From Tridacna crocea (taxonomy: Eukaryota; Mollusca; Bivalvia; Cardiida; Cardiidae), in NCBI GenBank assembly GCA_943736015.1, contig OX031070.1:20667673-20731672 (forward strand): a stretch of 64,000 nucleotides of DNA. Direction: 5' to 3'. Positions within the stretch are counted from its first letter, which is position 1. Each line of letters begins with the position of its first letter. The position numbers were made by a program, and so were the translations under genes. Below, piece after piece: positions 4,766 through 57,860 of the stretch. Below the pieces are notes generated by a model. That model was given only the letters and a program-made list of their open reading frames with translations, was not told the origin of the DNA and made no database searches.

Positions 4766-4849
4766 TAAAAGCCTACAGATATCTAAAACCCTTGGAAATT
4801 TTGCAACAGGTGACCTTTGGAAGAATAAAAGCGTATAGAACATGAGTAC

Positions 4850-5600: not shown

Positions 5601-5620
5601 CACTTTTCTCACCTGAAAAA

Positions 5621-5750: not shown

Positions 5751-5841
5751 AAAATTTGTTGTTTGTTGGTATAAAATTTTGCAACACTTTCAACGAAATT
5801 TAATCGTATTACTGCGAAGAGTCTCGAAAAACACAAAATTT

Positions 5842-5925
5842 TGGGTGAGGATCGAAACCCGAAACCCCCAAGTCACAAACCCGACTGCTTCACCAATGAG
5901 CAACGAAGGAACCCTGATTTGATCG
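5842..5925 (-). repeat. tRNA-like SINE head candidate
   Basis: On the minus strand a box A-like GTTGCTCATTGGTGAAGC (5887-5904) and a box B-like GGGTTTCGATCCTC (5847-5860) are spaced as in a tRNA. The middle could form an anticodon-like arm (GTCGGGTTTGTGACTTGG). No clean acceptor stem is seen, so a tRNA-derived SINE relic is preferred over a tRNA gene. Confidence 0.45.
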
Positions 5926-6760
5926 TAAGGGCAATCACCCTCAGTAGAAGTGGTCCGACGCCAGTTGTGAGGGGTGGTAATGATAAGGAGCCTTTGTCTT
6001 CGGAATAATTATCTATCTAGTGACCACAACAGACTGTTCTGTTCTGTACAATTGTCTTTGAGGCGCAATCATAGTCCCACACCCTTGACGCTAGCTACAG
6101 TAGGCACTAGTAATACTTTTTTTACAATGTGATTATAAAGAATTTGAATGCAATTTAGAAGCCTATAAAATATCTATTCTGTATCCAAGTCGGGTATAGA
6201 ATACGAGCTTTATAGTTCCTCTATTCGATCTGCACATATACTTAAAGTAAACATAGAATGCATTGTAATCGAAATTGGGAAAATAGAGATCATTGTTTAA
6301 TCACGTGCCAGGCGCACGAGGACAGATTTGTGGCATTTTCGATCAAATATTTATATAACGTAGGGATCTAACAAAACCGCAGCCGTAATTTTCACAATTT
6401 TTATCTTTTTTTTTTTCGTCGTTAAGTTCTTTAGTATTTCCACATATGAAGCATTTATACTCTGTTGTGAGCTCATTTTTTTTTGCTTTAAATTATTTAC
6501 TGAGAAAAAAAGTTCCAAGCCAATGTGTAGCTAATCCCCCACTTCTGTTTTTTTATCAATTTCAAAAGTCTTTTTGGATATGACAGCTAATCTGGCTGAT
6601 TATCACATGGAATAATGTCATAATCATTCTTGATGGATATTTGACGCCACTTAGAATTTAGACAAAAGTACATGTGAAAACGTTATAACGATTGGAAATG
6701 CATTGCACTGTGCTTCATTTGGCATTGAAAATGATAATGAATCACAATTGGTCTTCTAAA
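5926..6760. other. Unique AT-rich sequence
   Basis: About 0.8 kb with no gene or repeat recognised. Confidence 0.35.
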
Positions 6761-6989
6761 TTAACCCATTACCACTCAGTCCCTACTTTTGACGCCCCTG
6801 AGACAGAAGCCTGTTGAAAACACTGTGGGAAAAGGAGAAAATGCTGGTAACCACCATTTTCTCCTTTTCCCACAGTGTTTTCTACCCTTCCCAGAACAAA
6901 TTTCAATTTTAGAGTCACCTTTATTTTGTCGTCTGCAAATGCTATCAATTTGGACCAGTCTAAAATTTCCTAGTGTGGGAATGGGTTAA
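6761..6989 (+). mobile_element. Family A MITE, intact, C/G-arm subfamily
   Basis: TTAACCCATTACCACTCAGT to GTGTGGGAATGGGTTAA, 229 bp. The hairpin carries CACTGTGGG and CCCACAGTG on opposite arms. Its right TTAA is also the left TTAA of the next family C element. Confidence 0.88.
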
Positions 6990-7172
6990 ATGAAACTTTC
7001 AGGCCGATATTAAAAACCAAAATGATGCTACTTCAGACTTTTTTTGTGAGAATAATATCTGCATATCGGAGAGTGAAGATCCAAGATGAGACAGCACGTT
7101 CTGTGCAGTCTGATCTTGATCCACACTGTTCGCAAAAGGTCAGAAAGTCACGCTCAGCAGCCTAAGGGTTAA
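6986..7172 (+). mobile_element. Family C MITE abutting family A
   Basis: Starts at the shared TTAA, lacks the usual CCCTTATCCTGC block, and has ATGAAACTTTCAGGCCGATA, the hairpin (AGCACGTTCTGTGCAGTC) and the end CAGCAGCCTAAGGGTTAA. Confidence 0.78.
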
Positions 7173-7930
7173 CATGGAGACAGGAAAATTCTATTGTTGC
7201 TTTCTCTTTGGTACAGTAACGAAGGGGAAAAATCAATAATTTGATTCCACAACGGAATATTTAAACAATCAATCTGGGAACAAGCCCAGTTTAAGTCTGA
7301 ATACCCGGGAGTAAACAAAATTGTTTTCAAAATCGATACATCACATATTTGAATTTAAAATTTCTTCCTTTTCACCTTTGATCAATTCATAGTAGAACAG
7401 ATTGATTCATGTTTCATGAAAAGGCTTAATGACTAAATTACTTGTAACTCACTGAGGGCAAAAGAATTCCAAGAAAATTTTATAAAAAAAAAATTTAGTT
7501 TATGGTAAGTATATATGTTTTTGATCTATATGCTTTTGAGAAAATTAGAAGTAAGAAAATATATGATCGTCGTAGCCCGAATAAAAGTTAATCATTAAGG
7601 TGTTTATCTCTTTTACTCCAATGACATAAAAAGAGGCAATTTGCAGGTTGACCGCTAGGACCTCACAAAGAGCATAATAAAAGTGCAATTCTATGTTAGC
7701 TAAAAAAGAAAAAGTTTCGTTCAGTGTTTAAAATTATTAGGCATATAACTGTTTTTGTTGCTTTATTAACTTTCTGTGAGTAGTACACATGTTTAAGGGT
7801 GTCGTTTAATTGCTCAATCACGATTCTTTCGTCAAATATTAGATATAGTGAAACGTTTAACTTTGTAAACAATGGCATGTAAATGAATCCTTTAAGTACT
7901 AAACAAACCTTTGATTGCTATTCTGGCCAA
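7173..7930. other. Unique AT-rich sequence
   Basis: No coding or repeat signal recognised. Confidence 0.35.
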
Positions 7931-7939
7931 TGTGAATCA

Positions 7940-8043
7940 AAGATTAGACAGCAGACAGCATTCACTCTGATCTTGGATCTTTACATGTCAAGTCTACTTT
8001 GATTTAAAATGGCATTGAAAATAAATTGCGGTACGAAAGGGTA
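7940..8043 (+). mobile_element. Family C remnant
   Basis: A shortened palindrome around CACTCTGATCTTGGATC and a terminal GAAAGGGTAAG. Most of the interior is decayed. Confidence 0.4.
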
Positions 8044-8089
8044 AGGTTTGTTGCTTTCTGAAAATGTCGTTTGATTTATTTAGTACTTG

Positions 8090-8331
8090 AAGAGTTTTAC
8101 CGTTTACCGAACTGCTCTGAATTTAACAAACATGAAGAAGACAGTTTTAGAAAGTATTTTGGGGAAAGGAGAAAATGCAAGTGAGCAGCATTTTCTTCCT
8201 ATTCCCTGCAATGTTTTCTGTATTGTAAAAGATTGGCTACATTTTTTAAGTAACACTTAATTGTCATAAAAAATACTCTTCTGATTTGAACAAAGCTAAC
8301 ATTTTTGTTTTCATTTTTGTAAAGAGTTTAA
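8090..8331 (+). mobile_element. Family A MITE, diverged
   Basis: The hairpin GGGGAAAGGAGAAAATGC / GCAGCATTTTCTTCCTATTCCC is preceded by a decayed left end and followed by TTTTGTAAAGAGTTTAA. Confidence 0.6.
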
Positions 8332-9808
8332 TGTTTGATCTATAGCCAACGATCAATATTTTATTGATTTCCTGATTTAAGGACCCATCAGCTCCCAGAA
8401 AAAGGACATTTTTGGTATTGACATATTTGTAATGAAATTGATACTGTACAGTTTCGATTAAGATTGTCATTTAATAGATATCTAACTTAATGGTGTTGGA
8501 TATGCAGCAAGGTTTTTGTCGTATCCAAACAGAAATGTGGTCAAGTTGTCAGATCCACCAGACATGATTCTTGAAGTCAAAGTTATTGGCCAAAAATATA
8601 TCGATTGTACCTGTAGAATGTGAAATTTTCCCATAACTTGGCTATTTTTTGTCATACAAAAATTTTGCAACATAATTATATACCACTAATACTGACGTCA
8701 ACGTGAACTCAGGTCGTGCGCCGATTGTGTGCATGTTTTTTTTTTTAATTGTAAAGTTTTATTCATTTATTGTATTTTGATTGTAATATGTATCATTAAT
8801 ATATCTAATGATATGTATGTCGAGTCATGAGAAAAGTGTGTGTACATCTGGGAGAATCCTCGTATGAAAAACATGTACGTCCCTCCTCCTCAATTTCAGA
8901 CATGGGCTGTTTACAACGTAATTTCCGTAAACAAGTAAAAACACATTTTCACTTTGCTATGACCGATTTGTTAGATTCCTTTTCAATTAATCAAGATGAT
9001 TTCTACCCTCTTAATGAGAATTGAGGAAAGACAAATTCGAGAAGGTATGGTGCCCTAGCATCTTAAAACATTATTTTTACGTTCGGAATCCATAAACTCA
9101 CCTTGCACCATTGTATGCAAATTTTGTATCGTAGTTACAAGACAATTACTAGTATTTCGTTTTTAACAGAATGTCCTTTTGTGTTTATTTTCTGAAAGAA
9201 TTAGGCAAATTGATCAGTTTTATATGGCGATAGAGCTTATGCAGCACTGGAAATGGCTGTTATTCTGTAGGTACATTGGAACGATGAGCAAAAATTAGAC
9301 TCGGTTAACCAACCGCATATTGCGTTATTTTCAAATTCATAAAATTCGAGAATTATTCAAGACGGACATCAGGTATGGCCCTGTTGTAAATTATACTATC
9401 TACAATATTGTGTAATAAAGATCCAATAGTTTCTACACATGAAATTACCTGTGTGAAAACGAAATAATTATTTCTTTAATACAAAGCATCATTTTGTAAA
9501 GATGAAATAACACTTTCGTATATACAAACTACTATTGCATAAGTACGAAAACACACGATGATGATTCTGTTAACATAATAACAATACTGGTATTTCTTTC
9601 CCAATCAGTTTGGGACCTAGTAATTTTGAAAAGACTCTGAGATTGAATGTTGACCTATTTCGCAATATTGAAATTATCAACGCAAGAAAATATTGCTCAT
9701 GATCCACATTTTGATTTGAGAAGGCAGGAGGAGGTTACAACAACTTGAAACAGTTAGTTGATCGAGGCAGAGAGTATACAGAGATCTACACTAAAATTCA
9801 TGCAAATA
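8332..9808. other. Unique AT-rich sequence
   Basis: About 1.5 kb. Short ORFs here show no recognisable protein signature. Confidence 0.35.
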
Positions 9809-9960
9809 GGGTCCGTATCCATCCAACCATTCAAGATTGAGAAAATTCTTAGTCCTTGTACCATAAAGTTTCACCGTTCAGAAGTTGTTTTACCTTAAAA
9901 TTTAGAGAATCTTAGATAAGAGGACTAAAATGTCCTAAGAATAGTAGTTGAATACAGCCC
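9809..9960. mobile_element. Family D foldback, old copy
   Basis: GGGTCCGTATCCATCCAACC at the left and TAGTTGAATACAGCCCC at the right, with CAGAAGTTGTTTTACC inside, match the family D plan with many changes. Confidence 0.55.
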
Positions 9961-11096
9961 CACAAAACTGGTACTCTCTCTTCAAAAAGAACGGAAGATT
10001 TAGTAGTTTACAGAAGCAGCAAGACAAGAAGTTGCCATTTCAAAACAGGAAATTGTGACGAAAGACAAACATGCTGAATTTCCTCTGATACTACATACAA
10101 ACTCACGTAGAGTACACTTCCGATACTTCATTTCCATTCATAGCCCGTTTGCAAACTAATTGCTCTAGTTTTATTAGATTAATGAGATAGTTTTAACGCA
10201 AGATAATTCCTCGAAAATCAGGCGAAACACTGGTTTTGTCCCCTAATTCTTAGCGGAGGAATAAAATTTGTGTAATAATATATAACAGACATATGCTGTA
10301 TAAATAATTCACAAACGTGAGAACTGCACGCTCGTGAAATTCACGTCGTCCATAATTGCATGAATAATAGATAGCAAGCGTATGACATCTCAGAAACGTT
10401 TCTGTGAACGGTGATACTATAGGAAGAAAGACCTCACTTTTTCAGTGCTTGTGTGTTGTCATGTTGTCATTTAGATGGATAGCACACTCAGCAATAAACC
10501 TGGCCTTGAATTATGGTGCCCCTGGTCATAAAACAGCTCGACTCATTTTACACACAAAAGTGGTCTCTTCGTATTGCAGGAAACTATTAGACTGTTATTT
10601 TGCTTTTAATTTTCATGTTCTGTCTTGAACAAGTCAAGCAAACGGACGATGCCTTTCCTCAAACGTTTGTTATCAAACCCTAAAGAAGGTTCAGTTTATT
10701 CCCCTGACGTTTTTCCTTTGCTTATTTTAAACGTATCTTATTGCCGAAATTACATATCAATAAAAATCAATAAAAGTTTTGGCCACTTTGAGAATTAAGT
10801 TTCATTTCTAATTCACTTCGTAATATTCAAGTGTGCAACGACAAATTGAGACATTTTTTTCGAATCTTACGGTTCTTTGTGTGAAATATTTGAGTCCCCT
10901 CCCTCTCTCCCTCTCTCTCTCTCTCTCTCAGGATATGATAACAATAGCATAAAACGCTTGGCATTGCGCTGATGCGCTTTCTTGGTATAATTTGATGCCT
11001 CTAGTGATAAAATCTATAAATTAAAACCAACAGATTTGTCTAGGTTTGATGTATCCTGTTACATTTCTGAGTCGTTGTCAACGACTCCTATTCTTC
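9961..11096. repeat. Unique AT-rich DNA with a CT microsatellite
   Basis: The (CT)n tract lies at about 10896-10929. Elsewhere no gene or dispersed repeat was recognised. Confidence 0.5.
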
Positions 11097-11298
11097 AACC
11101 CTGAGGGAGAAAGCTCTTGAAAATGTCAAGAAAAGTAATAAAATGTGATAACAAGAAGTTTTTCCTTCTTCAACAACCAACAATTTTTACTACCCGTTCA
11201 CATAAAACATACAACAGATGTGCCTCTTACGGATGCTGTCACCAGGAGTTTTCATGTAGGGAAGATTTTAAATTTGGTCGTCTGGTAAAGAGTTAATG
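11097..11298 (+). mobile_element. Family A MITE, strongly diverged
   Basis: AACCCTGAGGGAGAAAGCTC and GAAAATGTCAAGAAAAG mark the left half, and TTTGGTCGTCTGGTAAAGAGTTAA marks the right end at 11273-11297. The hairpin is mostly lost. Confidence 0.55.
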
Positions 11299-12103
11299 AG
11301 AAAACCAAACAAATCTGTGGCCAAACATTTCAGACCGAAATGAAAGATATTTCACTGAAAATGTAATAATCTAACGGAAACGACAAATAAACCCAGTGTT
11401 ACATGACCTTTCTTTTCATTTCTCCTCATTTCTTCTCATTGGGGCCAATAAATAACAGGGAAATTAATAAAGAAGAAATCATGTTTGTTTTATATCAACG
11501 GCTGTCCATTACTAGGGCCATTTTCTTCATAGAATCCTCCTTGCGGCTTCTAAATTTTCTGGCTTAAAAATGTGAGATGCTGGCATAGTGACAGAGTGGA
11601 TTAAATAGTAACAAATGCATAATTGCAGTGATTAGAAAATTCTTGGGCCAAAGAGTAGTTTAGGAGGGAAAGAAAACTCAGATGAGGGAAACTGTATTGA
11701 TAAAGACAGAGTTTTACATTCTTTGCTTCCTAAAAATATAGAGAAAAATCCTAGAATCCAAACAAACAATAGAATGAAGACATCCCTAATTTGAAGGGAA
11801 TAGAGCGAAAGTGCTGTGAATATCATACACAAACCATTCTTTTATCTTCCAGATAAATCATACATGTAATTTGTTTCTCCCGCGTTATTGTCGCTATTGC
11901 AAACTGCTTGTACTCGTGAATCTGATATAAAAAGGGGAAAAATGAAAACAGAACTTAATGCATACATTTGCTGACCTTTGCACTCATCGGCTTCTTAAAC
12001 AAATTAACGGTGGGAATTCAAAGGTCATAAAAAACTTTCTTGCAGAATACGACTCGTCATAATGAATTAGAATTTGATAAACGTTTAATCGTTATACCGA
12101 GAT
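11299..12103. other. Unique AT-rich sequence
   Basis: Nothing recognised. Confidence 0.3.
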
Positions 12104-12140
12104 CTGCCTTGGTCTAGCGGTTCAGGTTTTTGTCTGTTGA
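12104..12140 (+). repeat. tRNA 5'-half-like fragment
   Basis: CCTTGGTCTAGCGGTTCAGG resembles a tRNA D-arm/box A. No box B follows at tRNA spacing, so it is at most a SINE fragment. Confidence 0.25.
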
Positions 12141-13149
12141 AAAATATAGCTCAGTTCTTGCTTTTTATAGCTACTTATGGCTGTCCTTGGAAAATACAAA
12201 TGCTTGTACTCTGCTAAAGCCCTGGGCCAGGCAAAAATGTAACAAAATGTAACCAAGAAATGTTTTTTCGGGCGGCGATCTGCTTTCGACTTCGATTTAA
12301 TTCCTGCTTTGCGCTGGCATTTAATGCCATGAGTCTGGCATTCTGTCAAATTTTACATTTTGATAACAGAATATGGACGTAACAACAGTTGGCTGTGCTT
12401 ACAGAAAAATAGGCGCCTCGGACAGCACCTGCTGGCATGTCCCTCGAAAATTGTTACATTTGCTATGCCATGTACTAGCAAAGTCTCGGGAATCTAAAAT
12501 GTGATGAACATGAATTTGTCAAGAAATGAATGAAGATGCGTTTATAACGACAAACGCTTGACAAAAAGCTATGAAGACAACAGGTTAAATACCTGTTTGG
12601 GTAAAATAAAATGTTTAGAAAAGATATAATTGCATCCACCGGTACATTGGGATTATCGGACGAGCATTACTACCATTTCGTGAGTTTCAGAATGATATAT
12701 ATAGCATCTTGTACTAGTTTTTTATAGCTCCTGACCAGAATCGAGTTCGTTTTTAAAAACTTGCAACGTTGAGTTTCACTGCCTTTCATTTTTCTGTTAT
12801 TTTACATCATTCTATTGTATTTCACCTCGATTCATTTTAACGGCAGATCTAGTAACTGATAATCTGTTTTATGAATTCGGCACAAAATTAACACACAAAA
12901 TGCTGCGAAACGATACTGATGTAATGATGAGTAATACAGCTGTAAAAATCGAACAGTGAATGGATGTGTTTGATACTCTTTGGTATTGATAATACCTGCC
13001 CTCTCTATAAAATGCTTGTATTTTCAAGACAGAACGTAAAATACCAGTCTATTTTTCTACATGGAAGACACCGACTTCTCTTGTATCAAACAATGGTGCT
13101 GTAGATTCATTGAAGTTTCTTGAAATAGAAAGAAAAAAAATCCATCTAG
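12141..13149. other. Unique AT-rich sequence
   Basis: About 1 kb without a recognisable gene or repeat. Confidence 0.3.
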
Positions 13150-16302: not shown

Positions 16303-17535
16303 TTAGCTCAGCTGAGCACAGTGTGCTTAACAGGAGCTTTTAGGATCACCCGGTGTCCGTCGTCCGTCGTGCGTCGTCAACAATTCTTTAAACATAAACT
16401 CATCCTAAACCGCTGAGCCTATTTGGACCAAACTTGGCTGGAATGTTCCTTGGGATGTCCTCTTTGAAAAGTGATCACAGAATTTGATTCCGTCAAAAAT
16501 TCTGATTGCCATGGCAACCAAATGGAATTTTCTAAGAAATTCTTTAAAAATCTTCTCTGAAACCGTTGGCCAGATTTTAAAATAATTTCACAGAGATGTT
16601 CTTTTGGTGACTCTTCAAAAATTGTTCGCGAAATTTTGATCCGTCTAGAAACATGGCTCTGGTGAATGGGGGCTACTTGCAGTATACAGAAATGAAGAAA
16701 TTTTTAAAAATTATTCTTCTCTGAAACAGCTAGTCAGATTTTGAAATAGTTTCACAGAAATGTTCCTTGAATGACCCATTTAAAAAGTTGTTCGCGAAAA
16801 TTTGATCCGTCTAGAACCATGGCTCTAGTGAATGGGGACTACTTGCACTACAGGAAAATTAAGAAATTCTTAAAAATTCTTCTTCTCTGAAACCCCTGAT
16901 CAGATTTTGAAATTATACACAGATGTTCCTTGGGTGACCCTTTTCAAAAATAGTTCGTGAAATTTTTTTTCGTCAAGAAACATGGCTCTGGTGAATGGGG
17001 GCTACTTGCACTATATGGAAATGAAGAAATTCTTGAACATTCTTCTTCTCTGAAACCAGTTGTCAGATTTTAAAATAATTTTACAGCAATTTTCCTTGGG
17101 TGACCCTTTTCAAAACCTTTTCCCAAATATTGATCAGTCAAGAAACATGGCTCTGGTGAATGGGGGCTACTTGCACTATAAGGACATGAAGGAATTCTTG
17201 AAAATTCTTCTTCTCTGAAACGGCTGGTCAGATTTTAAAATATTTTCACAGAGATGTTCCTTGGGTGACCCTTTTCAAAAATTGTTCGCGAAATTTTGAT
17301 CCATCAGGAAACATGGCTCTGGTGAATGGGGGCTACTTGCACTATACAGAAATTAAGACACTCCTAAAAATTATTTTCTGAAACTGCTGGCCAGATTTTG
17401 AAAGGACTTTTACGGATGACCTTTTGAAAATTGCTTGGCAAAATAATGATTTTGTTTCCAGTGTTTCAATACCGAAAAGAATGGCCCTCTCAAGAATTCA
17501 GGTGAGCGATCCAGGGCGATCTTGGCCCTCTTGTT
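16303..17535 (+). mobile_element. Pearl/Helentron-like element P1
   Basis: The head AGCTCAGCTGAGCAC and a hairpin with GTGTGCTTA are followed by TTTAGGATCACCCGGTGTCC and a GTCC/GTCGT microsatellite. At least five core units of about 155 bp then follow; each holds AGAAACATGGCTCTGGTGAA and a CAGATTTT block. The 3' end is CAGGTGAGCGATCC, a hairpin (AGGGCGATCTTGGCCCT) and CTTGTT. The CAGGTGAGC block is inverted relative to the head. The plan matches bivalve pearl elements and non-autonomous Helentrons. No Rep/helicase gene is present. Confidence 0.8.
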
Positions 17536-22337: not shown

Positions 22338-22388
22338 AGTCTTTCAACGCCAAATTATACCCTTGACATCTTTCTGTGCCTGAACATA

Positions 22389-22994
22389 TAATTATGCACC
22401 CCTTCGAAGAAGTGGGGGTATATTGCTTTGCACTCGTCGGTCGGTCGGTCCGTCGGTCGGTCGGTCCGTAGACCACATTTTTGTCCGGAGCATAACTCAA
22501 AAAGTAGTTCAGGTATCATCTTGAAACTTCATAGGTGGATAGATCTCATTAAGGAGAAGTGCAGTGCACAAGTACCATAACTCTGCCATCATATTTTTGG
22601 AGTTATTGCCCTTTGCTGATTTTCATACTAAATTTTTGTCCGGAGCATAATTCAAAAAGTATTTCAGGTATCATCTTGAAACTACATAGGTGGATAGATC
22701 TCATTAAGGAGAAGTGCAATGCACAAGTACCATAACCCTGCCCATCATATTTTTGGAGTTATTGCCCTTTGTTGATTTTCATACTTAATTTTTGTCCGGA
22801 GCATAACTCAAAAAGTATTTCAGGTATCACCTTGAAACCTCATAGGTGGATATATCTCATTAAGGAGAAGTGCAGTTCACAAGAATCATAACTCTGCCCA
22901 TCATATTTTGAACTTAACAGTTTATAATCACATGTTATATTTAGAATTGGATGCCATTAGGGGGGGCATACATGTTTCACAAACATCTCTTGTT
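22389..22994 (+). mobile_element. Pearl/Helentron-like element P6
   Basis: The head TTATGCACCCCTTCGAAG is followed by a (GGTC)n microsatellite (about 22436-22470). Three core units with TTTTTGTCCGGAGCATAA at about 22481, 22635 and 22792 (steps 154-157) follow. The 3' end has GGGGGGGCATA, inverted to the head, a hairpin ATGTTTCACAAACAT and CTCTTGTT. The core is related to that of P5 at 51047. Confidence 0.82.
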
Positions 22995-27800: not shown

Positions 27801-27865
27801 CTTGAGTGCGAGATGCTACGTATAGCTATGTACGAGGGACAGAGTATGTCCGTCACCTCAACGTT

Positions 27866-28255
27866 CTTGCCTTCGATTTGGTGTCATTCACGTGTGTGTA
27901 ATCAGCTTCTTTTGCACCATTTTTTAAATGAGTATCTATTCAGTTATTTGTTTGAAGAATAATACCTTATAGCTTATGTTTGAGTGTTTACTATTTCCAT
28001 TTTTATGTTGCTTTGTAGTATCTCAGTGCCCAGCTTATTTTCCTTTTCCCATAATGTTTTCTTGCCTTCGATTGGGTGTCATTCACGTGTGGGTAATCAG
28101 CTTCTATTGCACCATATTTTAAATAATTCATTCAGTTACATTTGTTTGAAGAATAAGACCTTACAGACTTATGTTTTGAGTGTTTACTGTTTCCATTTTT
28201 ATGTTGCTTGGTAGTATTATAGTACCCAGCTTATTTTCCTTTTCCCACGGTGTTT
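27866..28255 (+). repeat. Tandem duplication, 195-bp unit
   Basis: CTTGCCTTCGATTTGGTGTC at 27866 recurs as CTTGCCTTCGATTGGGTGTC at 28061. Both units end in TTTTCCTTTTCCCA and TGTTTTC, which is a family A right hairpin arm. The downstream sequence continues as a family A right half. Confidence 0.85.
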
Positions 28256-28367
28256 TCTGTGTCTTTACACACAAGTCCTGTCAGTTTAACCATAATTCTC
28301 GTATTATCCGCAAATTCTTTGAAAGGGGACATTTTTAAAAAGTTGTTATGGGGTAAAGAGTTAAACC
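28238..28367 (+). mobile_element. Family A right half
   Basis: CCTTTTCCCACGGTGTTTTC, ATCCGCAAATTCTTTGAAAG and GGGGTAAAGAGTTAA: right arm and right end only. The left half is replaced by the tandem duplication. Confidence 0.7.
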
Positions 28368-31259: not shown

Positions 31260-31369
31260 ATACACGCGAAAAGGGACATACGGACATTTGCGTAAAGTGT
31301 CGTCTCGGATCAGCCTGCGCATGCTGATCTGAGACGGCATTTTCCGTTTTATGATTTTTTAGCTCCACT
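31260..31369. mobile_element. Family F left half
   Basis: ACACGCGAAAAGGGACATAC, CAGCCTGCGCATGCTGATC, GACGGCATTTTCCGTTTTATG. The element stops where pearl-like element P3 begins. Confidence 0.8.
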
Positions 31370-31859
31370 GGCCGAAGGCCAGCGAGCTATTGTCATGGCG
31401 TCATGTCCGTCGTGCGTCCGTCCGTCCGTCCGTTCGTCCGTCCGTCCGGCCGTTCGCCCGTGCATGCGTCCGTAAACTTTTTCTTTAAAAAACTTCTCCT
31501 CAGAAACTTTTGACTGGATTTTTACCAAATTTCACAGGAATGTTCCTTAGGTGGTCCTCTTTCAAATTCCTGCAAATAATTGTGTTCCATAAAGAATTCT
31601 GGCAACCAAAGTAAAAAACCTTTAAAAATCTTCTCCTCCCAAACCGCTAATTTGATAGCATTATTTTTTTGCAGGAATGTTCTTTAGATAGAGGTCTACA
31701 GAATTCCTTATAAAAAAAAGATCCGTCAAAAAACATGGCTTTTATGGGAGACTCATTTTCCTTGTATGGAATAAAGTAGAATCTTTGAAAAATTAAATTT
31801 CTTCTCTAAAACTACTTGTTTTGATTTCATTGTTGTATTGCAGGTTAGTTCCTATGGTG

Positions 31860-32088
31860 GTAAGTCTTTACCATACAATCTTGACTTTTAACTACCCTAA
31901 AGAAGAAGTTTTTAGAAAACACTCTTGGAAAAGGAGAAAATTATGGTAATCAGCATTTTCTCCTTTTCCCTCAGTGTTTTCTACTCTATCAAAGAGAGAA
32001 ATCATCATTTCATCAATGTTTAATTTGTTGTCTGCAAATGCTTTCAGTTTGGTCACATCCCAAATTTTGTCGTTTGGTAAAGAGTTAA
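31860..32088 (+). mobile_element. Family A MITE in P3
   Basis: GTAAGTCTTTACCATACAAT to CGTTTGGTAAAGAGTTAA. The hairpin is complete with a changed tip (AAATTATGGTAATCAGC). The left TTAA is mutated. Confidence 0.85.
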
Positions 32089-32227
32089 AGGTGGTTGCTT
32101 TATATAATCTATAATCCTTTTCATATAAAACAAGAGAACCTCTGCACTTTGATTAGTTCTGGTAAAGGTTTGTTGACCTACTGGTGACCTGGTACAAAGA
32201 GGGACAGGGCTTTACTGTTGTGATAAG

Positions 32228-32434
32228 GCATTTGTTATCCAGTCAAACTGATCCCTGACAAGGAAGACTTTAGAAAACATTGTGGGAAAAGGAGAAAATG
32301 CTGGTAACCTTTCCCCACAATGTTATCTACCCTTCACAAAACAACTTTCAAATTTCCAGTCACTTTTATTTTTTCATCTACAAATGCTTTCCATTTGGAC
32401 AACCCTAAAATATTGTCGTTTGGTAATAAGTTAA
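32228..32434 (+). mobile_element. Family A MITE, arm deleted
   Basis: The left arm GAAAATGCTGGTAACC is followed directly by TTTCCCCACAATG, so about 16 bases of the right arm are missing. It ends GGTAATAAGTTAA, sharing that TTAA with the next copy. Confidence 0.8.
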
Positions 32435-32657
32435 CTATAACCAGAAGACAAAATTTTTATAACTGGCCATAATTGAAAGATGTTGCAGACAACATAATAA
32501 ATCTTCAAATTAGTAAAACTTGTATCAAAAAGGATAGAAATTATTGTGTAAAACTAAGAAAATGCAGATTACTTTTATTTTCTTCTTTTCTCACAATGTT
32601 TTTCATCGCTTTTTTTCTTTAGTGACCTAAAATGCAGGAATGAATGGTAATTGTTAA
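32431..32657 (-). mobile_element. Family A MITE abutting the previous
   Basis: TTAACTATAACCAGAAGACA to AATGGTAATTGTTAA. The hairpin is decayed (AAGAAAATGCAGATTAC). It begins on the TTAA that ends the preceding copy. Confidence 0.75.
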
Positions 32658-32726
32658 AAACTTCTCTTCACTGTTGCAGAAAAATCAGGCCTGTGGGGCG
32701 ATACAAGCGCTAAAACGCCTCTAGTT

Positions 32727-34374
32727 CACTGAGTTATGGCCCTTTCATGAAATTTCTTGTCCGCTCTTTTTCTCATCAACTATTGGACAGATTTGGTTCA
32801 AACTACACAAATAGACTCAGTATCAAGCAGAGATGTGCATATCCTATTTTGGTTATTGTTTATTTAGGTGTCATGGAGTTATGGCCCTTTGATGATTCTG
32901 GACAAATTTCTTTCAAACTTCATGGATAGACTTTGCACTCAGTAAAGATGTGCATATCATAAATTGTTCTTAGTTAATTAAATAAAATTTCCAAGAGCTA
33001 AGCCCTTTTTTGTCGTTCTCTTTATGATGGTGCCCTTGCTGAATTGATGAAAATAAATTATACTTTTGATAGAATACTTTTAACACAGCTGTCCGTCCGT
33101 CCGTCGGTCTGTAGCTTTTTGTCCGCTCTATTTCTCATGAACTATTGGACGAATTTTATTCAAACTTCAGTAGACTCAGTATCAAGCAGAGATGTGCATA
33201 TGAAATGTTGGTTATGGTGCATTGATTTTTCACTGAGTTATGGCCCTTTCATGAAATTTCTTGTCTGCTCCTTTTCTCATCAACTATTGGACAGATTTGG
33301 TTCAAACTATACAAATAGACTCAGTATCAAGCAGAGATGTGCATATCCTATTTTGGTTATGGTTTATTCAGGTTTCATGGAGTTATTGCCCTTTGATGAT
33401 TCAGGACAAATTTCTTTTTTTTTTTGTCTGCTCTATTTCTCAGTATCTACAGGATGGATTTCAGTCAAACTTCATGGGAAGTTTCATTATGAAGTCAAGA
33501 CGTGCATATTGTAATTTAGTTACAGCTGAATGATTGTCAAAGGAGTTACTGCTTTTTCATGGATGTTTTTGTCTGCTCTGTTTCTCAATAACTGCCGGAC
33601 AGATTTCAGCCAAACTTAATGGGAAGTTTAATTATGAGGTAAAGATGCGCATATTATAATTTAGTTACAGTTGAATGATTTTCAAAGGAGTTATGGCCCT
33701 TTTATGAATTTTTTTTCTCTTCTCAATTTTTCAGTATGTATTGGATGGGTTGCAGTTAAACTTCATGGGAAGTTTAAGCATGAAGCTAAGATGTGCATAT
33801 TATTATTTGGTTATGGTTGAATGATTTTCAAAGCAATTATGGCTCTTTCATACATTTTTTTGTCCACTCTATTTCTTAATAACTACTCAACAGATTTCAA
33901 TTGTCAGCTCTATTTCTCAGTATCTACTGGACAGATTCCAGTCAAACTTCATGCGAAATTTCATTATGAAATGAAGATGTATTAGTATAATGTGTTATGG
34001 TTGAATTTTCAGTCTGAGGTCAAGATGTGCATATTACAATTTGTTTATGCTTGAATGATTTTCCAATTACTTACGGCCCTTTTATATTTTTTTGTCCACT
34101 CCATTTTGCAATAACTGCTTAGCAAATTTCTAACAAACCTCAAAGGAAGTTACCCTATAAAATAAATACATGTATGTGCATATTATAAATTGTTTACAGT
34201 TTAATAATTTTCCATTGACCGGTTTCCCTTTATTTCTCTTTTTTTCCAAATAGTCTTTTTTTTTTTTAAATCTTTCTTTTATACTAAACCATGCTGCATT
34301 CTGTTACAAAGATATGTTTTGTGACAAGGAGCTGGTGGGGGGTATGATCACGTTTAGTTTATAGCTCTAGTTTT
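32727..34374 (+). mobile_element. Pearl-like tandem core array P4
   Basis: Repeated blocks TCAACTATTGGACAGATTTG, AAGCAGAGATGTGCATAT and GAGTTATGGCCCTTT recur at irregular steps. A (GTCC)n stretch is at about 33092-33107. The array ends GGGGGGTATGATCACG, TTTAGTTTATAG, CTCTAGTT, a pearl-type 3' end. A matching head was not found, so it is 5' truncated or rearranged. ORFs of up to 156 codons are by-products of the repeat units. Confidence 0.7.
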
Positions 34375-37423: not shown

Positions 37424-38015
37424 TAGCTCCACTGGCCAAAGGCCAGCGAGCTATTGTCATGGCGTTGTGTCCGTCGTGCGTCCGTCCGTTCGTCTGTGCG
37501 TGCGTCCGTAAACTTTTTCTTCAAAAAACTTCTCCTCAGAAACTAGTCATTGGATTTTTACCAAATTTCACAGGAATGTTCCTTAGGCGGTCCTCTTTTA
37601 AATTCCTTCAAATAATTGTGTTCCATGAAGAATTCTGGTTGGCATGGCAACCAAAGTAAAAAACCTTTAAAAATCTTCTCCTCCCCAACCGCTTATTGGA
37701 TAGCATTATTATTTTGCAGGAATGTTCATTAGATAGAGGTTTATAGAATTCCTTTTTTTAAAAAAAGATCGATCAAAAAACATGGCTTTTATGGGAGACT
37801 CATTTTCCTTTTATGGTATAAAGTAAAATCTTTGAAAAATTTCTTCTCTCAAATTATTCGTTGGATTTCATTGTTGTATTGTAGGTAAGTTCCTTTGGTG
37901 GCAAGTCTCTACCACACAATCCCAACTTTTAACGATCAAACTTGTAAAACTTCTCTTCACCGTTACAGAAAAATCAGGCCTGTGGAGCGATACAGGCGCT
38001 CAAGCGCCTCTAGTT
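37424..38015 (+). mobile_element. Pearl/Helentron-like element P3, copy 2
   Basis: Same head (AGCTCCACTGGCC), GTCC microsatellite and core as at 31370. The 3' end is GGCCTGTGGAGCGATACAGG, hairpin GGCGCTCAAGCGCC and CTCTAGTT. At about 37905-37942 it keeps TACCACACAATCCCAACTTT, a fragment of a family A left end. Confidence 0.85.
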
Positions 38016-39595: not shown

Positions 39596-39649
39596 GGATT
39601 TCAACACTTTACTCATTTGATGCATTTTAGCGATGATTGTGTCTTTTTT

Positions 39650-41274
39650 AGCTCACCTGAGCACAACGTGCTCAAGGGGAGCTTTTAGGATCACCCGGTG
39701 TCCGTCGTCCGTCGTCCGTCGTGCGTCGTGCGTCGTCCGTCGTGCGTCAGTGCGTCGTGCGTCGTCAACAATTCTTTAAACATCAACTCCTCCTAAACCG
39801 CTGGGCGGATTTGGACCAAACTTGGCTGGAATGTTCCTTGGGAGGTCCTCTTTAAAAATTGTTCACAGAATTTGATTCCGTCTAAAACTCTGGTTGCCAT
39901 GGCAACGAAATGGAATTTTTTAGCAAATTCTTTAAAAATCTTCTTCTCTAAAACCGCTGACCAGATTTTAAAATAATTTCACACAGATGTTCCTTGGGTG
40001 ACCCTTTTCAAAAATTGTTCGCGAAAATTTGATCCGTCAAGAAACATGGCTCTGGTGAATGGGGGCTTCTTGCACTATACAGAAATGATGAAATTCTTAA
40101 AAATTCTTCTTCTCTGAAACCGCTGGCCAGATTTTAAAATAATTTCACACAGATGCTCCTTAGGTGACCCTTTTCAAAAATTGTTCGTGAAATTTTGATC
40201 CGTCAAGAAACATGGCTCTGGTGAATGGGGGCTTCTTGCACTGTACAGAAATGAAGAAATTCTTAAAAATTCTTCTTCCCTGTAACAGCTGGTCAGATTT
40301 TAAAATAATTTCACAGAGATGTTCCTTGGATGACCCTTTTCAAAAAATGTTCGCGAAATTTTGATCTGTCAAGAAACATGGCTCTGGTGAATGGGGGCTT
40401 CTTGCACTATACAGAAATGAAGAAATTCTTAAAAATTCTTCTTCTCAGAAACCGCTGGTTAGATTTTGAAATAATTTCACAGACTTGTTCCTTGGGTTAC
40501 CCTTTTCAAAAATTGTTAGCGAAATTTTGATTGGTCAAGAAACATGGTTCTGGTGAATGGGGGCTACTTGCACTATATAGAAATGAAGAAATTCTTGAAA
40601 ATTCTTCTTCTCTGAAATGGCTGGACAGATTTTGAAATAATTTCACAGAGTTGTTCCTTGGGTGACCCTTTTCTAAAATTGTTCGCAAAATTTTGATTGG
40701 CCAAGAAACATGGCTCTAGTGAATGGGGGCTACTTGCACTATATGGAAATGAAGAAATTCTTGAAAATTCTTCTTCTCTGAAACCTGTGGTCAGATTTTA
40801 AAATAATTTGACAGAGATGTTCCTTGTGGGACTCTTTCCAAAAGCTGTACATATAATTTTGATCCATCAAGAAACATGGTCTTGTGAATGGGGGCTACTT
40901 GCACTATATGGACATGATGAAATTCTTTAAAATTCTCTTTCTCTGAAACCCCTGGTCAGATTTTGAAATTATTTCAGAGAGATGTTCCTTGGGTGACCCT
41001 TTTCAAAACTTGTTTGTAAATTTTGATCCATCAAGAAACATGGCTCTCATGGATGGGGGCTACTTGCTCTTATACAGAAATGAAGAATTCTTAAAAACTC
41101 TTCTTTTTGAAACTGATGGTCAGATTTCGAAATGATTTTTACAGGTGACCTTTTGAAAATTGCTTGGCAAAATTATAAATTTGGTTCCAATGTTTGAATA
41201 CCTAAAAAAAAAATAGACTATGGTCATCTCAAAAATTCAGGTGAGCGATCCAGGGCCATCTTGGCCCTCTTGTT
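39650..41274 (+). mobile_element. Pearl/Helentron-like element P2
   Basis: The head AGCTCACCTGAGCAC and hairpin GCACAACGTGC lead to GATCACCCGGTGTCC and a GTCC/GTGC microsatellite (39699-39765). About eight core units of about 170 bp follow, each with AAGAAACATGGCTCTGGTG and CTACTTGCACTATA. The 3' end is TCAGGTGAGCGATCC, hairpin AGGGCCATCTTGGCCCT and CTTGTT. Same family as P1 with more core units. Confidence 0.85.
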
Positions 41275-49402: not shown

Positions 49403-51046
49403 TGAATGCAATATAATTATGCATGTAATTTAATGCGTCTCATAGACACCCAGTGACAGTTAAATGAACGACTCTCTTGCAACTGTTTGTTCTTAAAATT
49501 GAAGACAGGTATTTTTAATTTAGTATTAGGGGTATTGTATTTTAACATGTGAGAACAAGACATTTATCTTCGGATTTTTTTCTTAGATAATAAAACAAGG
49601 AATACGTCTAAATGTAGTTTAATAAGATATCAATTTTCCTTCAATTCCACCATTCTTTCATTGTTTGCATTGACTGTAGTTGCATAAAAATTGCTAAAGT
49701 CATACCTGAGGGAAATTCAGACATCAGGTAGGCGAAGCAATTCATTATTTGTTATGATGTCTCCCCAGGAGGCAATCATAAATCGTTACACATTTTTTTC
49801 ACATCCTGATGTATTACAATCACGATTGGTGTCCATTTAATATAATAATAAGGTATCTCGGGAATAATCGTTTTGATCAAACCTGGCCTGTAGTGACCGG
49901 TATCTCGCGTCATATACTGTTCATAATTTCAAGCCCTGACAATCATATAAGAACGTGCCTAGAGGATTCGGTAGGCGACGGCAAAGGACGCAAACAGTGC
50001 CGATACCACACACACCAGATACTACAAATATGGAAATAAATAACTGTATTTTTATCTCAAGCTATTGATTGTTTTCTACCGTGTTCTAGGCTAACGTAAA
50101 AGTAATAACTATGGATATATAATTATATTTCCCTAAAGAGAAGTAGAGCAATTAAATGCTTTTGAAGTTACTTGTAGGCTATATTGATATATACACGTAC
50201 TAAGCTAAATATGGCCATGATTTCTACAGGTATCTTCTTTTAGGTCACCCTTCTTGAAATTTGCCAATACAGACCCTCACCGTCCCTCTCTACGACTGTC
50301 TGTCCTCCCGTTCCTAAATGATTAAATATCTTCTCGTAAGAATCCTATTTTTCAACAGATTAAGTAAGAGCAGCCATCTTTGATCACACGATAAACAGCA
50401 TTCTTTTCTCATATAGTTAAGTGCCTTACATAAACTTTCATTTTCGTCTCCAGTCTCGACTGTTATTCTACTGAATGTCTCTTAAGTATTCTGCATACAA
50501 CTCAAATTTCAGGCGTATCTATGATATACTTTTGAATAGATCGGAGTTTACACAGCATTTGTTTTAGGTTTTTGCAGAGGAAACAGTCTAACCCTCTTGC
50601 CTCGAAGCTCGAGACCTCGAGTTTTCCTATCTTGCATGTTAACATGATGGAATACCTCACAAAAGATGTCATGTAATGTCTGTTTGGTAAAAGACGAATC
50701 GTCTCCTAGGTTCATATATTCAAGATTTATTGCCAAGAAACTTTTGGAAGCGTAGTTTCATGGAACCACAAAACTGATTGTGTAGAATGGATATATTATG
50801 ACTTTCGAGTATTTTATTCTGACAGAGATATTTACTTCATATCCCTGGCTCAGAAATCGTACAATCATGGAGGTAACCACAGGGTCAACAGGCTTAATAT
50901 TATTTTCATAGCATCATGTGGCTTGTCTCAGTCAAAATTGTTTAAACTCTGTACTTTATTTTAAAAAGAGAGCCCATGCGCATCTGTTTCGCTTAAACCA
51001 GTACAGAGAAACTCAAGCAATTTTTGTCCACAAGGCTTGCATATAA
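49403..51046. other. Unique AT-rich sequence
   Basis: About 1.6 kb without a recognised gene or repeat. Short ORFs are unsupported. Confidence 0.35.
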
Positions 51047-52813
51047 TTATACGCCCGAAGGGTCGTATTATGTTATACCCACGGTCGTCTGTCCGTCCGT
51101 TAGCAATTTCTTGTGTGCGCAACTCCTACAGTTTCCATCGGAATTATTTGAAAGCTGCCACACTCTATGGTGTTTAGTTATGCACCTGACTCTTAGAATT
51201 TGGATCGCTGTTTGATTTCTAAAATTATCTGCCCTTTATTTCTGAAATAACCAACTTTTCACTTTGAATTTTTGTCTAGGCCATACCTTCCAAACGATAA
51301 AAGGTATCAACTTGAAACTACATACACTGATATAACACATTATGAAGAAGTGCAGTGCACATGAACCATAACTCTGCCCTCTTTATTTTATGAGTTACTG
51401 CCCTTTGCTAATTTTCAGTTTGAATTTTTGTCCAGGCCATAATTTCCAAACTGTAAAAGCTATTAACTTGGAACTTCATACACTGATAGAACCCATTATG
51501 GAGAAGTGTTTTGCTCATGAACCATAACTCTGCCACCTTTATTTTTTAGTTGTTGCCCTTTGTTATTTTTCAGTTTGAATTTTTGTCCAGGCCATAACTT
51601 CCAAACTATAGAAGCTATTAACTCGGAACTTCATACACTGATAGAACCAACCCATTATGGAAAAGTGTAGTGCACTATGGAGAAGTGTTCCGTCAAGAAA
51701 TGTGGAAGGAGTTGCCTTCACAAGAAATGGAATGAAATATAACATGAAACCCCCTTTTTCCATGATACCTTATTACAAAAAGAAGGGCAAATAACTGTGG
51801 TGTTGCACGCTCAATGTAGGTGAAACTTTTTTTTCCTGCATTTCCTAATGGGGGTTGACAGATGTGACAAGTTCAATGTAAAAACTTTGTATAGTTTTGA
51901 AGACAAGACTCCAAACATCAAAAGTGTACTTGAGTGTAACTTAAGTGAAACTTTAAATCGCTCTCAGTCGGCCATTTTGCCTCGAATCAAAAATACAAAA
52001 AAATTGTCTCGGGAGAATGGGTCATTGTACATGTGTATAAAGTTTCACGAAATTCCGTCAAATGGTATTGGAGATATTTGCCGGGACGGTACACGGACGG
52101 AGGGACGGACGGACGGACAACGCTAAAACTATATCCCACCGCCTACGGCGGGGAATAAAAAGCATTGTGGGAATGTCAAGTGATTAGCATTCTCTGTCAC
52201 CTTTATTTTTTTGAGTTATTGCCCTTTGTTAATTTTCAGTTTGAATTTTTGTCCAGGCCAAAACTTCCAAACTATAAAAGCTATTTACTTGGAACTTCTT
52301 ACACTGATAGAACCCACTATGGAGAAGTGTAGTGCACATGAACCATAACTCTGCCACCTCTATTTTTTAAGTTATTGCCCTTTGTTAATTTTCAATTTGA
52401 ATTTTTGTAAAGACCATTACTTCCAAACATCAAAAGCAATCATCTTGAAACTTCAAAGACGAATAGAACGCATTATGTAGAAGTGCATTGCATAAGAAGC
52501 ATAACTCTGCCTTACTTCTTTTTGAGTTCTTGCCTTTTGTTAGTTTTCACTTTGATTTTTCGTCTAGGCCATAATTTCTAAAATATAAAAGCTATGATCT
52601 CAAACCTTTAAAGACTGATAGAACACATTGTGGATAAGAGCAATTCACAAAATTTGTAACTGTGCCACCCTTATTCTTTTAGTTGTTGTCCTTTAATATT
52701 ATTCACATATCATGGTGAATAACTACTCCTCATTCATGGCCCATCCGTCATTTCAACTCATTTCACTGACAAGCCCCTTCGGGCGTATATGCGCCGCTCT
52801 GCGAGGCTCTTGT
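51047..52813 (+). mobile_element. Pearl/Helentron-like element P5
   Basis: The head is ATACGCCCGAAGGG. GTCTGTCCGTCCGT and then core units with TTTTTGTC..GGCCATA at about 51270, 51425, 51578, 52244, 52403 and 52556 follow (steps 153-159 outside the insertion). The 3' end has CCCTTCGGGCGTAT, an exact inverted copy of the head, then a hairpin (GCCGCTCTGCGAGGC) and CTCTTGTT. Element Q is nested at 51689-52185. It is the clearest example of the shared architecture. Confidence 0.88.
51689..52185 (-). mobile_element. Element Q nested in P5
   Basis: Reverse-complement match to 56150-56680: CCGTCAAGAAATGTGG, ACATGAAACCCCC, ACTGTGGTGTTGCAC, the (GGAC)n tract near 52096-52120, CCGCCTACGGCGGGG hairpin and AGCATTGTGGGAATGTCAAG. 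P5 core units resume on both sides. Confidence 0.87.
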
Positions 52814-53555
52814 TGATTTATATCTCGACCATGTAGTTTATGTTTTTACATGACGTATAAGGTCCAGAAACCCAGAAAGTGTTAAGCATCAGCAATGAGT
52901 CATTTATTCATTTCTAGCGGAGATGTTCCATCGTTTCAATATGTGCAGACTTTTCGTATTTGTACTTCATACCCAGATGTGTAATGGTGAAGCAAGGTTG
53001 ACCCCTGCTTCTGTGTATGTTTCGATTTTTTTTTTCTCCTTGTTTGTCGCACATCCATGTTTGTTTCATCTTACTCAATTACAGTTTACATACATATCAT
53101 ACCCAGAACACAAGAATCACTAACGCACTCTATTACTTTTTCAATTGTAACCTATTCCTATCGCTGAGACAGAGAGGAAGAATCTGCCTGGTCATATCTC
53201 AAAGGAACCACACCTTCTGTGGACTAACTTTTTTCTTCATAGATTTCAATCCTATTATTCTTTTTTATACTTCTCTACAGAAAAGGATATTTGCGCTAAA
53301 ATCTTTGCCTTCGACAATAACGCCTTTCTAACACAGGTCTACAACCATAAATCAAGGAAAATTTGACACATTTTGAAAATAAAGGCACCCTGGAGGGGCT
53401 GTGTCAACTTGGATCATGTTTCAGTAGACAGTCAGAATACTTCATGAGATTATCTTGACCAGATAGGAGCCTCCCAATGGAAGCATCATTTGTGGAGAGA
53501 AAACTTGTCTGTAACGGTGGTGAGATAGAGTTCTGACTTCAGCTTGTAGTAGATT
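52814..53555. other. Unique AT-rich sequence
   Basis: Two overlapping ORFs near 52923-53331 have no recognisable domain. Confidence 0.3.
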
Positions 53556-56149: not shown

Positions 56150-57860
56150 AAGCCAATCACTTGACATTCCCACAATGCTTTTTATTCCCCGCCGTAGGCG
56201 GATGGATATATTTTTTAGCGTTGTCCGTCCGTCCTTCCTTCCGTACGTCCGTCCGTGTGTCCGTACCGGCAAATATCTCCAGTACCATTAGACGGAATTT
56301 CGTGAACCTTTATACACATATACAATGACCCATTTTCCCGAGACAGTTTTTTTGTTTTTTTGATTCGATGCAAAATGGCCGACTGAGGGCGATTTTAAGT
56401 TTCACTTAAGTTACACTTAAGTACACTTTTGATGTTTGGAGTCTTGTTTTCAAAACTATACAAAGTTTTTACATTGAACTTGTCACATCTGTCAACCTCC
56501 ATTAGGAAATGCAGGAAAAAAAATTCCTACATTGACTGTGCAACACCACAGTTATTTGCCCTTGTTTTTGTAATAAGGTGTCATGGAAAAAGGGGGTTTC
56601 ATGTTATATTTCATTCCATTTCTTGTAAGGCAACTCCTACCACATTTCTTGACGGAATTGAATAGAATTTTGACAGAATATTCCTTGTCGTGTGACCTAT
56701 TGCATATTGTCAACATTTTGCGATTTGTAGCTGCGTCATGAAAAAAGGGGGCTTCATGTTTTATTTCATTTTATTTCTTGTGAATGCAACTCGTCCCATA
56801 TTTTTTGACAGAATTGAAAAAAAAAATCACAGGGTGTTTCTCATCATCTGACCTATCGCATATTCTAAAGGTTTTGCGATTTGTAGCTGCGTCATGAAAA
56901 AAGGGGTCTTCATGTTTTTATTTCATTCTATTTCTTGTAAAGGCAACTCCCCCCACATTTCATAGCAGATTTGGATGGAATTTTCACATGATCATGTGAT
57001 CTACGGCATATTGTCAAGGTTTTGGGATTTTAGGCTGCATCATGGAATAAGGGGGCTTCATGTTATAATTTCATTTTTCACCAGAATCTCTTCAATTAGT
57101 GGACATATCTCAATAGATTTGGATGAGATTTTCACAGATCATGCAACCTAGCACATGTTGTCGGGTTTTGCAATTTATCACTGTATCATGGAAAAAGGGG
57201 ACTTCATGTCAAATTTAATTTTTCATCAGTGTATCTCCAACTTTTGCACATATTTTCATAGAACTTCATATTTTTATTGCTTGATCAAAGCCAGTGACCA
57301 ATGAGTCAATGGTGCATTCGTCTCTCCATGCATCAGTCTGTTTGTAAACCTTTTAGATCACAAGTAATACCATATATCCATTCAGCTACCCAGGCAGGTG
57401 CTACAAATTTCATCACTTTAGTCTCTAGCTACCTGCTTGAAATGGCAGCAGTGTGGTGGCTTATATTGTGAGAAGGATATCGTGTAAAGTCTTTGACAAA
57501 AATTGATGAAACGTCATGCATGTTTTCCATTGGGTAGTCCGTTGATACATTTTTTCCTACATATATGAAATCCTGAAATGAAAAAAGAAAAATAAAGGAA
57601 ATATACATAAAACCCCCTCTTTCCATGACATGTCATTATATATGACATGTCATGGAAAAAGAGGTTTTATGTATATTACCTTTATTTGTTTTCATTTTAT
57701 GAAATGCCAAGTTCTGCAAAAAGGATACTTAATGTATAATCCTGTTATGGACCTCTTTTACATTTTTTATGTAATGAAATCCTCTGCCATGGAACAAGGG
57801 AGCTTAATGTATAATTTCATCATGGACCAAGAACAAAAAGGCCACATGTACATGCAAAAC
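56150..57860 (+). mobile_element. Element Q, long copy with tandem core
   Basis: The head CCCCGCCGTAGGCGG hairpin is preceded by ATTCCCACAATGC and followed by a GTCC microsatellite (56221-56262). Core units with CATGAAAAAAGGGGGCTTC start near 56580, 56738, 56895, 57044 and 57187 (steps 143-158). Farther units are shorter and include a palindrome at 57588-57678. A pearl-type hairpin plus CTCTTGTT end was not located; GGCGGAGGATATC near 57910 may mark the 3' end. Confidence 0.72.
57588..57678. repeat. Long near-perfect palindrome
   Basis: ATATACATAAAACCCCCTC on the left and GAGGTTTTATGTATAT on the right, with CCATGACATGTCATTATATA in the centre. It is made of two core-unit pieces in inverted order. 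Confidence 0.85.

Follow-up and report, generated by a model that had tools for sequence, protein, structure and literature searches.

The element at positions 51048 to 52814 of the window, the 64,000-nucleotide stretch of Tridacna crocea DNA analysed here, raises the question of what it shares with three other pearl-like families in the same stretch and of what moves them. The first-pass annotation had read the four families (P2, P3, P5 and P6) as one architecture, in which a head at the 5´ end recurs inverted close to the 3´ end and is followed there by a hairpin and CTCTWGTT, and had taken them all for non-autonomous Helentrons. Head, inverse, hairpin and CTCTWGTT are present in P2, P3, P5 and P6, and we consider it highly probable that all of them belong to the Helitron2/Helentron group as non-autonomous Helentrons (HINEs) driven by the Rep/helicase of a full-length Helentron. 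For P2, this reading is supported by a partner element with a GSPHIH-type Rep; five filled sites, from P5-family copies and the partner, fit insertion at TTTT^C. The class of P3, P5 and P6 is read from the shared architecture only. The parts of P5 are as follows.

51048 to 52814, plus strand: P5, very probably a non-autonomous Helentron-type element, 1,767 bp, with ATIRs matching at 15/15 bases, a hairpin and CTCTTGTT
51048 to 51068, plus strand: P5 5´ head, the 5´ ATIR in a predicted bulged hairpin, ATACGCCC-GAA-GGGtCGTAT (fold -4.9 kcal/mol)
51084 to 51100, plus strand: GTCC-type microsatellite
51256 to 51648, plus strand: core array, 156-bp unit, 2.5 copies (Tandem Repeats Finder)
51688 to 52161 (left border approximate), minus strand: P7 fragment, from another HINE-like family, inside P5, with its head at the right, TTTTTATTCCCCGCC...
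52192 to 52694, plus strand: continuation of the core array, 156-bp unit, 3.2 copies (Tandem Repeats Finder)
52775 to 52789, plus strand: 3´ ATIR, the inverse of the head
52790 to 52814, plus strand: weak 3´ hairpin and terminal CTCTTGTT

Both borders of P5, earlier placed at 51047 and 52813, shift by one base. The element begins with TATACGCCCGAAGGG, and the inverse CCCTTCGGGCGTATA starts at 52775, such that the head (51048-51062) and its inverse (52775-52789) are complementary at 15/15 bases; the terminal CTCTTGTT starts at 52807. The P7 fragment (head TTTTTATTCCCCGCCGTAGGCGG..., GTCC microsatellite) is one of two P7 copies in the window and is the one nested in P5. The second, at about 56175-56657 and beyond, is 91.6% identical to it, and no CTCTWGTT end was seen in the window copies of P7.

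The other three families are represented by the following elements.

39649 to 41274, plus strand: P2, with head, GTC-type microsatellite, 166-bp core in 7.3 copies, 3´ ATIR, hairpin and CTCTTGTT
16304 to 17535, plus strand: second P2 copy, without a T-run ahead of the head
37424 to 38015, plus strand: P3, 592 bp, with only a decayed 165-bp repeat and terminus CTCTAGTT
31360 to 32726, plus strand: second P3 copy, terminus CTCTAGTT
22393 to 22994, plus strand: P6, 602 bp, with a 156-bp core in 2.8 copies, homologous to the P5 core

The P2 head (GCTCACCTGA at 39651) pairs with TCAGGTGAGC at 41237 at 10/10 positions and the P3 head (GCTCCACTGGCC at 37426) with GGCCTGTGGAGC at 37977 at 11/12, with a single mismatch. 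Pairing is imperfect between the P6 head (TATGCACCCC at 22393) and its inverse (GGGGGGGCATA at 22960). The CTCTTGTT or CTCTAGTT termini start at 41267 in P2, 38008 in P3 and 22987 in P6. CTCTWGTT occurs 10 times in the window, counting both strands, and at least six of these occurrences terminate elements of this kind. Directly after the second P3 copy, we also noted arrays of a 145-bp unit (32727-34372), in which CTCTAGTT lies at 34365. They probably represent a further HINE-like family, the head of which was not found. A 196-bp tandem unit, present in two copies at 27864-28258 (Tandem Repeats Finder), could be linked to neither a head nor a 3´ code.

For a search across the genome (1.05 Gb in 31 contigs), the 3´ code was defined as the inverse head and, after a gap of 6-36 bases, CTCTWGTT, with the pattern read backwards as the control. 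This search returned 11,698, 1,441, 3,982 and 729 sites for P2, P3, P5 and P6, respectively, compared to 1, 2, 2 and 0 for the reversed controls, which is more than expected by chance; CTCTWGTT alone is found 111,860 times, versus 60,620 times reversed. Heads of the form T5+ATACGCCCG are present at 3,293 sites, versus a single control site. We rejected the idea that CATATAATTAT belongs to the 5´ end of P5 and P6, since it has 7 genome sites and a control count of 1. We also tried to define families by structure alone (T-run, head, local hairpin and ATIR), a scan that proved too strict, with 0/10 window motifs passing. Elsewhere, it passed 1/34 motifs in L001-L038 and L069-L079 and 11/41 in the loci picked by P5; the corresponding counts for the reversed motif were 0/4 in the window, 0/13 in L001-L038 and L069-L079, and 0/6 in the P5-picked loci.

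The hairpin that had been described after the inverse head is clear in P2, P3 and P6 but weak in P5 (-2.6 kcal/mol, DNA fold). The P6 hairpin is also at -2.6 kcal/mol, yet its stem is 6 bp long and perfect. Among 100 of the 11,698 P2 3´ ends, all from contig C1 and counted as sequences rather than as independent events, 73 can form a stem of 5 bp or more without mismatch, compared to 8 of 2,000 shuffles; the other 27 lack a perfect 5-bp stem. The stems listed for these 100 ends include GGGCCA/TGGCCC (49), GGACCA/TGGTCC (20), GGGCTA/TAGCCC (1) and GGGCCC/GGGCCC (1), several of which differ on both sides. The P2 3´ hairpin has been kept up.

A predicted hairpin in the 5´ head is an addition to the first-pass annotation, which had omitted it. 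The head itself folds in all five termini tested, at -4.1 to -11.3 kcal/mol and always with a bulge or mismatch. In 5/5 termini, the model gives the duplex between the two ATIRs a lower energy than it gives the bulged hairpin of the head: -13.1 versus -11.3 kcal/mol for P2, -15.6 versus -8.2 for P3, -20.2 versus -4.9 for P5, -11.0 versus -4.1 for P6 and -15.8 versus -9.5 for the P5 sister family of L040, all being model values for isolated pieces; G-T pairs were disallowed in the hairpin folds, and the duplexes were computed by a separate routine. These predicted energies are consistent with, though short of proving, the endpoint switch suggested by Bao and Jurka.

The families had been called unrelated-looking, which is half right. 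The P2/P3 group and the P5/P6 group are not homologous to each other: scores between P2 or P3 cores and P5 or P6 cores were below the shuffle maxima. Within each pair, however, the cores are homologous, with scores of 82 and 102 for P2 against two P3 copies (maxima over 60 shuffles, 35 and 38) and of 149 for P5 against P6 (shuffle maximum, 29). The claim that all four combine a microsatellite with tandem units holds for P2, P5 and P6, which have an array, but P3 retains only a decayed repeat. Tandem Repeats Finder reported no array in the P3 core, and P3 aligned to itself by BLAST gave no off-diagonal match; counting matches by lag, we found 41/60 at lag 165 (maximum in 30 shuffles, 32) and, for the second P3 copy, 39/60 at lag 137 (maximum in 30 shuffles, 34).

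Insertion between T residues, as expected of such elements, was examined by comparing filled and empty sites. We fetched 30 genome sites carrying the P5 3´ code (L039-L068), and P5-family heads were seen in 23 of them, preceded by at least five T in 22/23 (the exception is L044). At least four of the 30 copies (L048, L054, L055 and L065) occupy one and the same site of an abundant palindromic repeat. The common empty form of this repeat is AGCATTTTCTCCTTTTCCCACAATG, and the filled form consists of CTCCTTTTT, then the element (A...CTCTTGTT), then CCCACAATG, or a near form. Once the flanks were joined and the T-run was fixed at four residues, 22, 77, 87 and 73 BLAST matches crossed the junction for the four copies, these being counts of matches and not of distinct copies, in which one copy may count twice because the repeat is palindromic. 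Together with the 15-kb unit described below, this makes five filled/empty comparisons, all of which fit TTTT^C and none of which has a target duplication.

The hotspot repeat is very abundant and MITE-like, with dozens of copies in the window (for example at 20234, 21950 and 31952). It consists of arms X and Y around GGTTACCAGCATTTTCTCC, and Helentron-type insertions recur at its TTTT^C, which makes this position a hotspot. In the 20 most frequent classes listed, the arm order is rcX-GGTTA-Y in 24 cases and rcX-GGTTA-X in 2. For the elements of the window, no match spanning an empty site of P2, P3, P5, P6 or the second P3 copy was found in the retrieved sequence, and a genome search with the joined flanks of P5 gave no empty site because those flanks are unique in the genome. 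The heads of P5 and P6 are not preceded by a T-run; instead, CATATAATT precedes both P5 (at 51040-51056) and P6 (at 22385-22401). The string CATATAATTATRCRCCC has only 7 matches genome-wide, two of them in the window and 28 kb apart.

Searching the genome with the Helitron_like_N profile gave at least 32 matches. Of 14 long Rep frames, seven carry GSPHIH, six carry HWHG and one has the motif outside the displayed part. GSPHxH is diagnostic of the Helentron-type Rep (PMC4067079), and the Rep of L010, L016 and L019, FYRVEFQQRGSPHIH, agrees with (V/I)ExQxRGSPHxH with F/Y-x-R ahead. For seven Rep loci, the 6-8 kb that follow the frame were examined (stretches L069-L073, L077 and L078), six of GSPHIH type (L009, L010, L011, L015, L016 and L019) and one of HWHG type (L020). 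The P2 3´ code is present in sense, 2.0-3.6 kb past the Rep frame, in 3/7 stretches (those of L010, L016 and L019), where the 11,698 sites lead one to expect about 0.045 on either strand of 8 kb; none carries the code in antisense. No sense P2 head within two substitutions was found in L070, L071 or L073. None of the four 3´ codes lies downstream of L009, L011, L015 or L020, and P2 3´ ends were seen in antisense near two further Rep loci, L027 and L037. The full-length Rep/helicase element that the earlier annotation had called for thus exists with the P2 3´ code, but the seven stretches hold none for P3, P5 or P6. Seven Rep/helicase proteins compared by tblastn with the window, L001-L008 and L039-L068 gave no match.

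The HWHG frames form a second Rep/helicase lineage with the motif YRxEFAxSxGMxHWHG (L020, L023, L025, L026, L028 and L029), to which L022 and L032 are joined by 97-99.9% DNA identity to L020. Over 3,597 bases, L025 (contig C2) shows 100% identity to L026 (contig C13), and L020 and L023 are 99.8% identical, suggesting recent spread. No P-type end was found within 6 kb downstream of L020.

For one of the three loci with a P2 3´ code, we could assemble a unit with P2 sequence at both ends. EL016, the joined reverse complements of L075, L016 and L071 (contig C11, minus strand), holds a unit of 15.0 kb, with a P2 head (GCTC) at 1130 and a P2 3´ end at 16124. Its first 680 bases are 91% identical to P2, including microsatellite and core, and its last 40 bases 97.5%. 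A second P2 head lies within the core, at 1807, without a 3´ end of its own. The single frame, open from stop to stop at 4529-12712 (2,728 aa), contains Herpes_teg_N (deubiquitinase-like), DUF6570, Helitron_like_N and PIF1 domains. PIF1 was detected in both elements scanned for it, EL010 and EL016, and the Exo_endo_phos endonuclease scores above the Pfam cut-off in EL010 and below threshold in EL016 and EL019. At the start of the frame, 4306-4547 of EL016 (within the reverse complement of L075) resembles, in degenerate form, the microsatellite and 3´ end of P5, CATTTCATTGACAAGCCGCTCTGGGTTTATATTTGC...TTTGCGAAGCCTTTGTT. The related Helentrons EL010 and EL019 carry a sister P2 code, GATATAGGACC, at the 3´ end. 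EL010 would be 15.4 kb if a head at 834 is right, although its flanks give no empty site, and the 5´ end of EL019 was looked for but not found; both partner ends are present in EL016, and the 3´ end alone is certain in EL010 and EL019. The EL010-type 3´ end, sought as a 28-base pattern that takes in eight bases, perhaps partly ATIR, ahead of CAGGTGAGC, was found at 4,903 genome sites with at most two mismatches, compared to 0 for the control. The sequence just before the EL016 3´ ATIR is unique, with 1 genome site, leaving EL016 itself as only a candidate direct parent of the P2 copies.

The P2 module may be the 5´ end of EL016 itself or a HINE nested in it. Under the nested reading, the true 5´ end would lie further inside, at about 2,300-4,500, and only the 3´ end would be common with P2. 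Nesting is frequent among HINEs, at least 4/30 P5-family copies have hit the target repeat, such that a second hit in this hotspot by chance is conceivable, and a degenerate P5-like piece stands directly ahead of the EL016 frame. On the other hand, the EL016 flanks look like two halves that rejoin into one complete hotspot repeat whose arms have the canonical order, rcX-GGTTACC-Y, and the joined site has 57 spanning BLAST matches (matches, not distinct copies), the best 80.8% identical. L017, which is 94% identical to L016 over 3,588 bases, has a P2 array and a nested head at about the same upstream distance (L079), its own 5´ end not being seen, and the inner P2 head of EL016 lacks a 3´ end of its own. 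Given the rejoining flanks and the similarly placed array of L017, the P2 module most likely is the element's own 5´ end, and we regard the nested reading as unlikely, at roughly one chance in a handful.

Two other kinds of driver were weighed against a Helentron. Canonical Helitrons (Helitron1, with TC...CTRR ends and A/T insertion) are also rolling-circle elements with a 3´ hairpin, and a second type of Rep (HWHG) is indeed present in this genome. Instead of 5´ TC and 3´ CTRR, however, the elements here have T(A)...CTCTWGTT ends that include ATIRs and a 5´ hairpin, the five filled sites fit TTTT^C and not A^T, and GSPHIH is the motif of the Rep adjoining the P2 code, making Helitron1 a highly improbable source. 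An older reading of pearl elements, recounted in PMC7492417, is that of MITE-like elements, here moved by a cut-and-paste transposase, as might be thought from the short inverted repeats near both ends and from copies without a long frame. Since the 3´ inverted repeat is subterminal rather than terminal, no target duplication appeared in five filled/empty comparisons, and the same ends were found on a Rep/helicase element, we judge this reading a shade more improbable still. Both were dropped as drivers because the ends and insertion sites misfit.

Non-autonomous Helentrons remain the preferred reading, in which the driver of P2 is likely encoded by a Helentron with the same ends. A full-length Helentron is the presumed driver of P3, P5 and P6 as well; P2 copies would use the partner protein, and the elements may be active at present. 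In the mechanism that we envisage, HINEs would retain only the parts that a transposase recognises, namely the hairpin-forming 5´ head and, at the 3´ end, the inverse head, second hairpin and CTCTWGTT. The Rep of a full-length Helentron would nick at these ends and start rolling-circle copying, with unwinding presumably by PIF1. Copying probably ends where the 3´ ATIR pairs with the 5´ ATIR, which may open the hairpin of the 5´ head, and the copy would then insert at TTTT^C or a similar T-rich site without target duplication.

EL016 has two heads but only one 3´ end, which suggests that the 3´ end of an inner element can serve an outer head: the outer head, part of its core, the inner head and core, the protein-coding frame and the one 3´ end seem to have moved together. 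A bolder proposal, to which we give slightly less than even odds, is that the satellite array belongs to the 15-kb Helentron and that P2 heads can combine freely with P2 3´ ends downstream of them. Bivalve satellites would in that case be built, swapped and spread by elements that insert into the T-rich core of another and are then read out from the outer head. Rolling-circle elements are held to spread satellites (PMC11136912) and are reported to make up on average 12% of Crassostrea genomes (PMC10294476).

The end design is already in print, as Helitron2 (PMC3627910) and as 11 oyster HINEs (PMC7492417). In Helitron2 (Bao and Jurka 2013), the 5´ ATIR lies 0-2 bp from the end, which is a 5´ T, and is folded in a 5´ hairpin, and the 3´ ATIR lies about 20-30 bp from the other end, just ahead of a hairpin. 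Helitron-1N1_CRe of Chlamydomonas inserts between TTTT and T/C without duplication, and compensatory changes in two related elements accompany the endpoint-switch idea (PMC3627910). The ATIRs, both hairpins and the T-site are alike here, whereas Chlamydomonas CRe-1,2,3 have target duplications, unlike the five sites here, and a satellite core is absent from the description in the corresponding sections of PMC3627910; Helitron2 is also without the endonuclease, according to the part of PMC4067079 that treats it. Helentrons and HINEs/DINE-1 (Thomas et al. 2014), as far as PMC4067079 was available, agree in having subTIRs, an inverted repeat beside the 5´ subTIR, a microsatellite, central repeats, a 3´ palindrome, a TT preference and a Rep/helicase/endonuclease partner with GSPHxH. 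Those are mite and Drosophila families, and EL016 differs in having a satellite module inside the protein-coding unit. Rep/helicase proteins with a herpes-tegument-like deubiquitinase and a C-terminal endonuclease occur in Helentrons, including those of molluscs, and the deubiquitinase-like domain is the one seen in EL016; HINE ends lie outside that account, in the portion available (PMC9741609).

Pearl elements of bivalves are described by a microsatellite and a tandem core of about 160 bp; such a core is present in P2, P5 and P6 and decayed in P3, and the families may be of that kind. In the Pacific oyster, Cg_HINE (Vojvoda Zeljko et al. 2020) has a subTIR, an inverted repeat, a satellite-like core, a microsatellite (GTCC/GTCY/GTCK in several), a palindrome in the last 60 bp and oligo-T insertion, a likeness by description and not by sequence (PMC7492417). 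In the open literature accessible to us, including PMC12628747, PMC11136912 and PMC10294476 and leaving aside subscription papers and Repbase, we found no later report of an autonomous partner for such elements in a bivalve; the P2 partner thus goes beyond what is in print as far as seen, though we make no claim of first discovery. The 11 oyster HINE elements differ in flanks and core, and none of the ten autonomous oyster Helentrons could be related to them, according to the part of PMC7492417 available, whereas one Helentron here is related to P2. A HINE group with 11,698 3´ code matches in one genome is now tied to long-frame Helentrons, a tie that makes the working of the ends and the entry and exit of tandem arrays directly testable.
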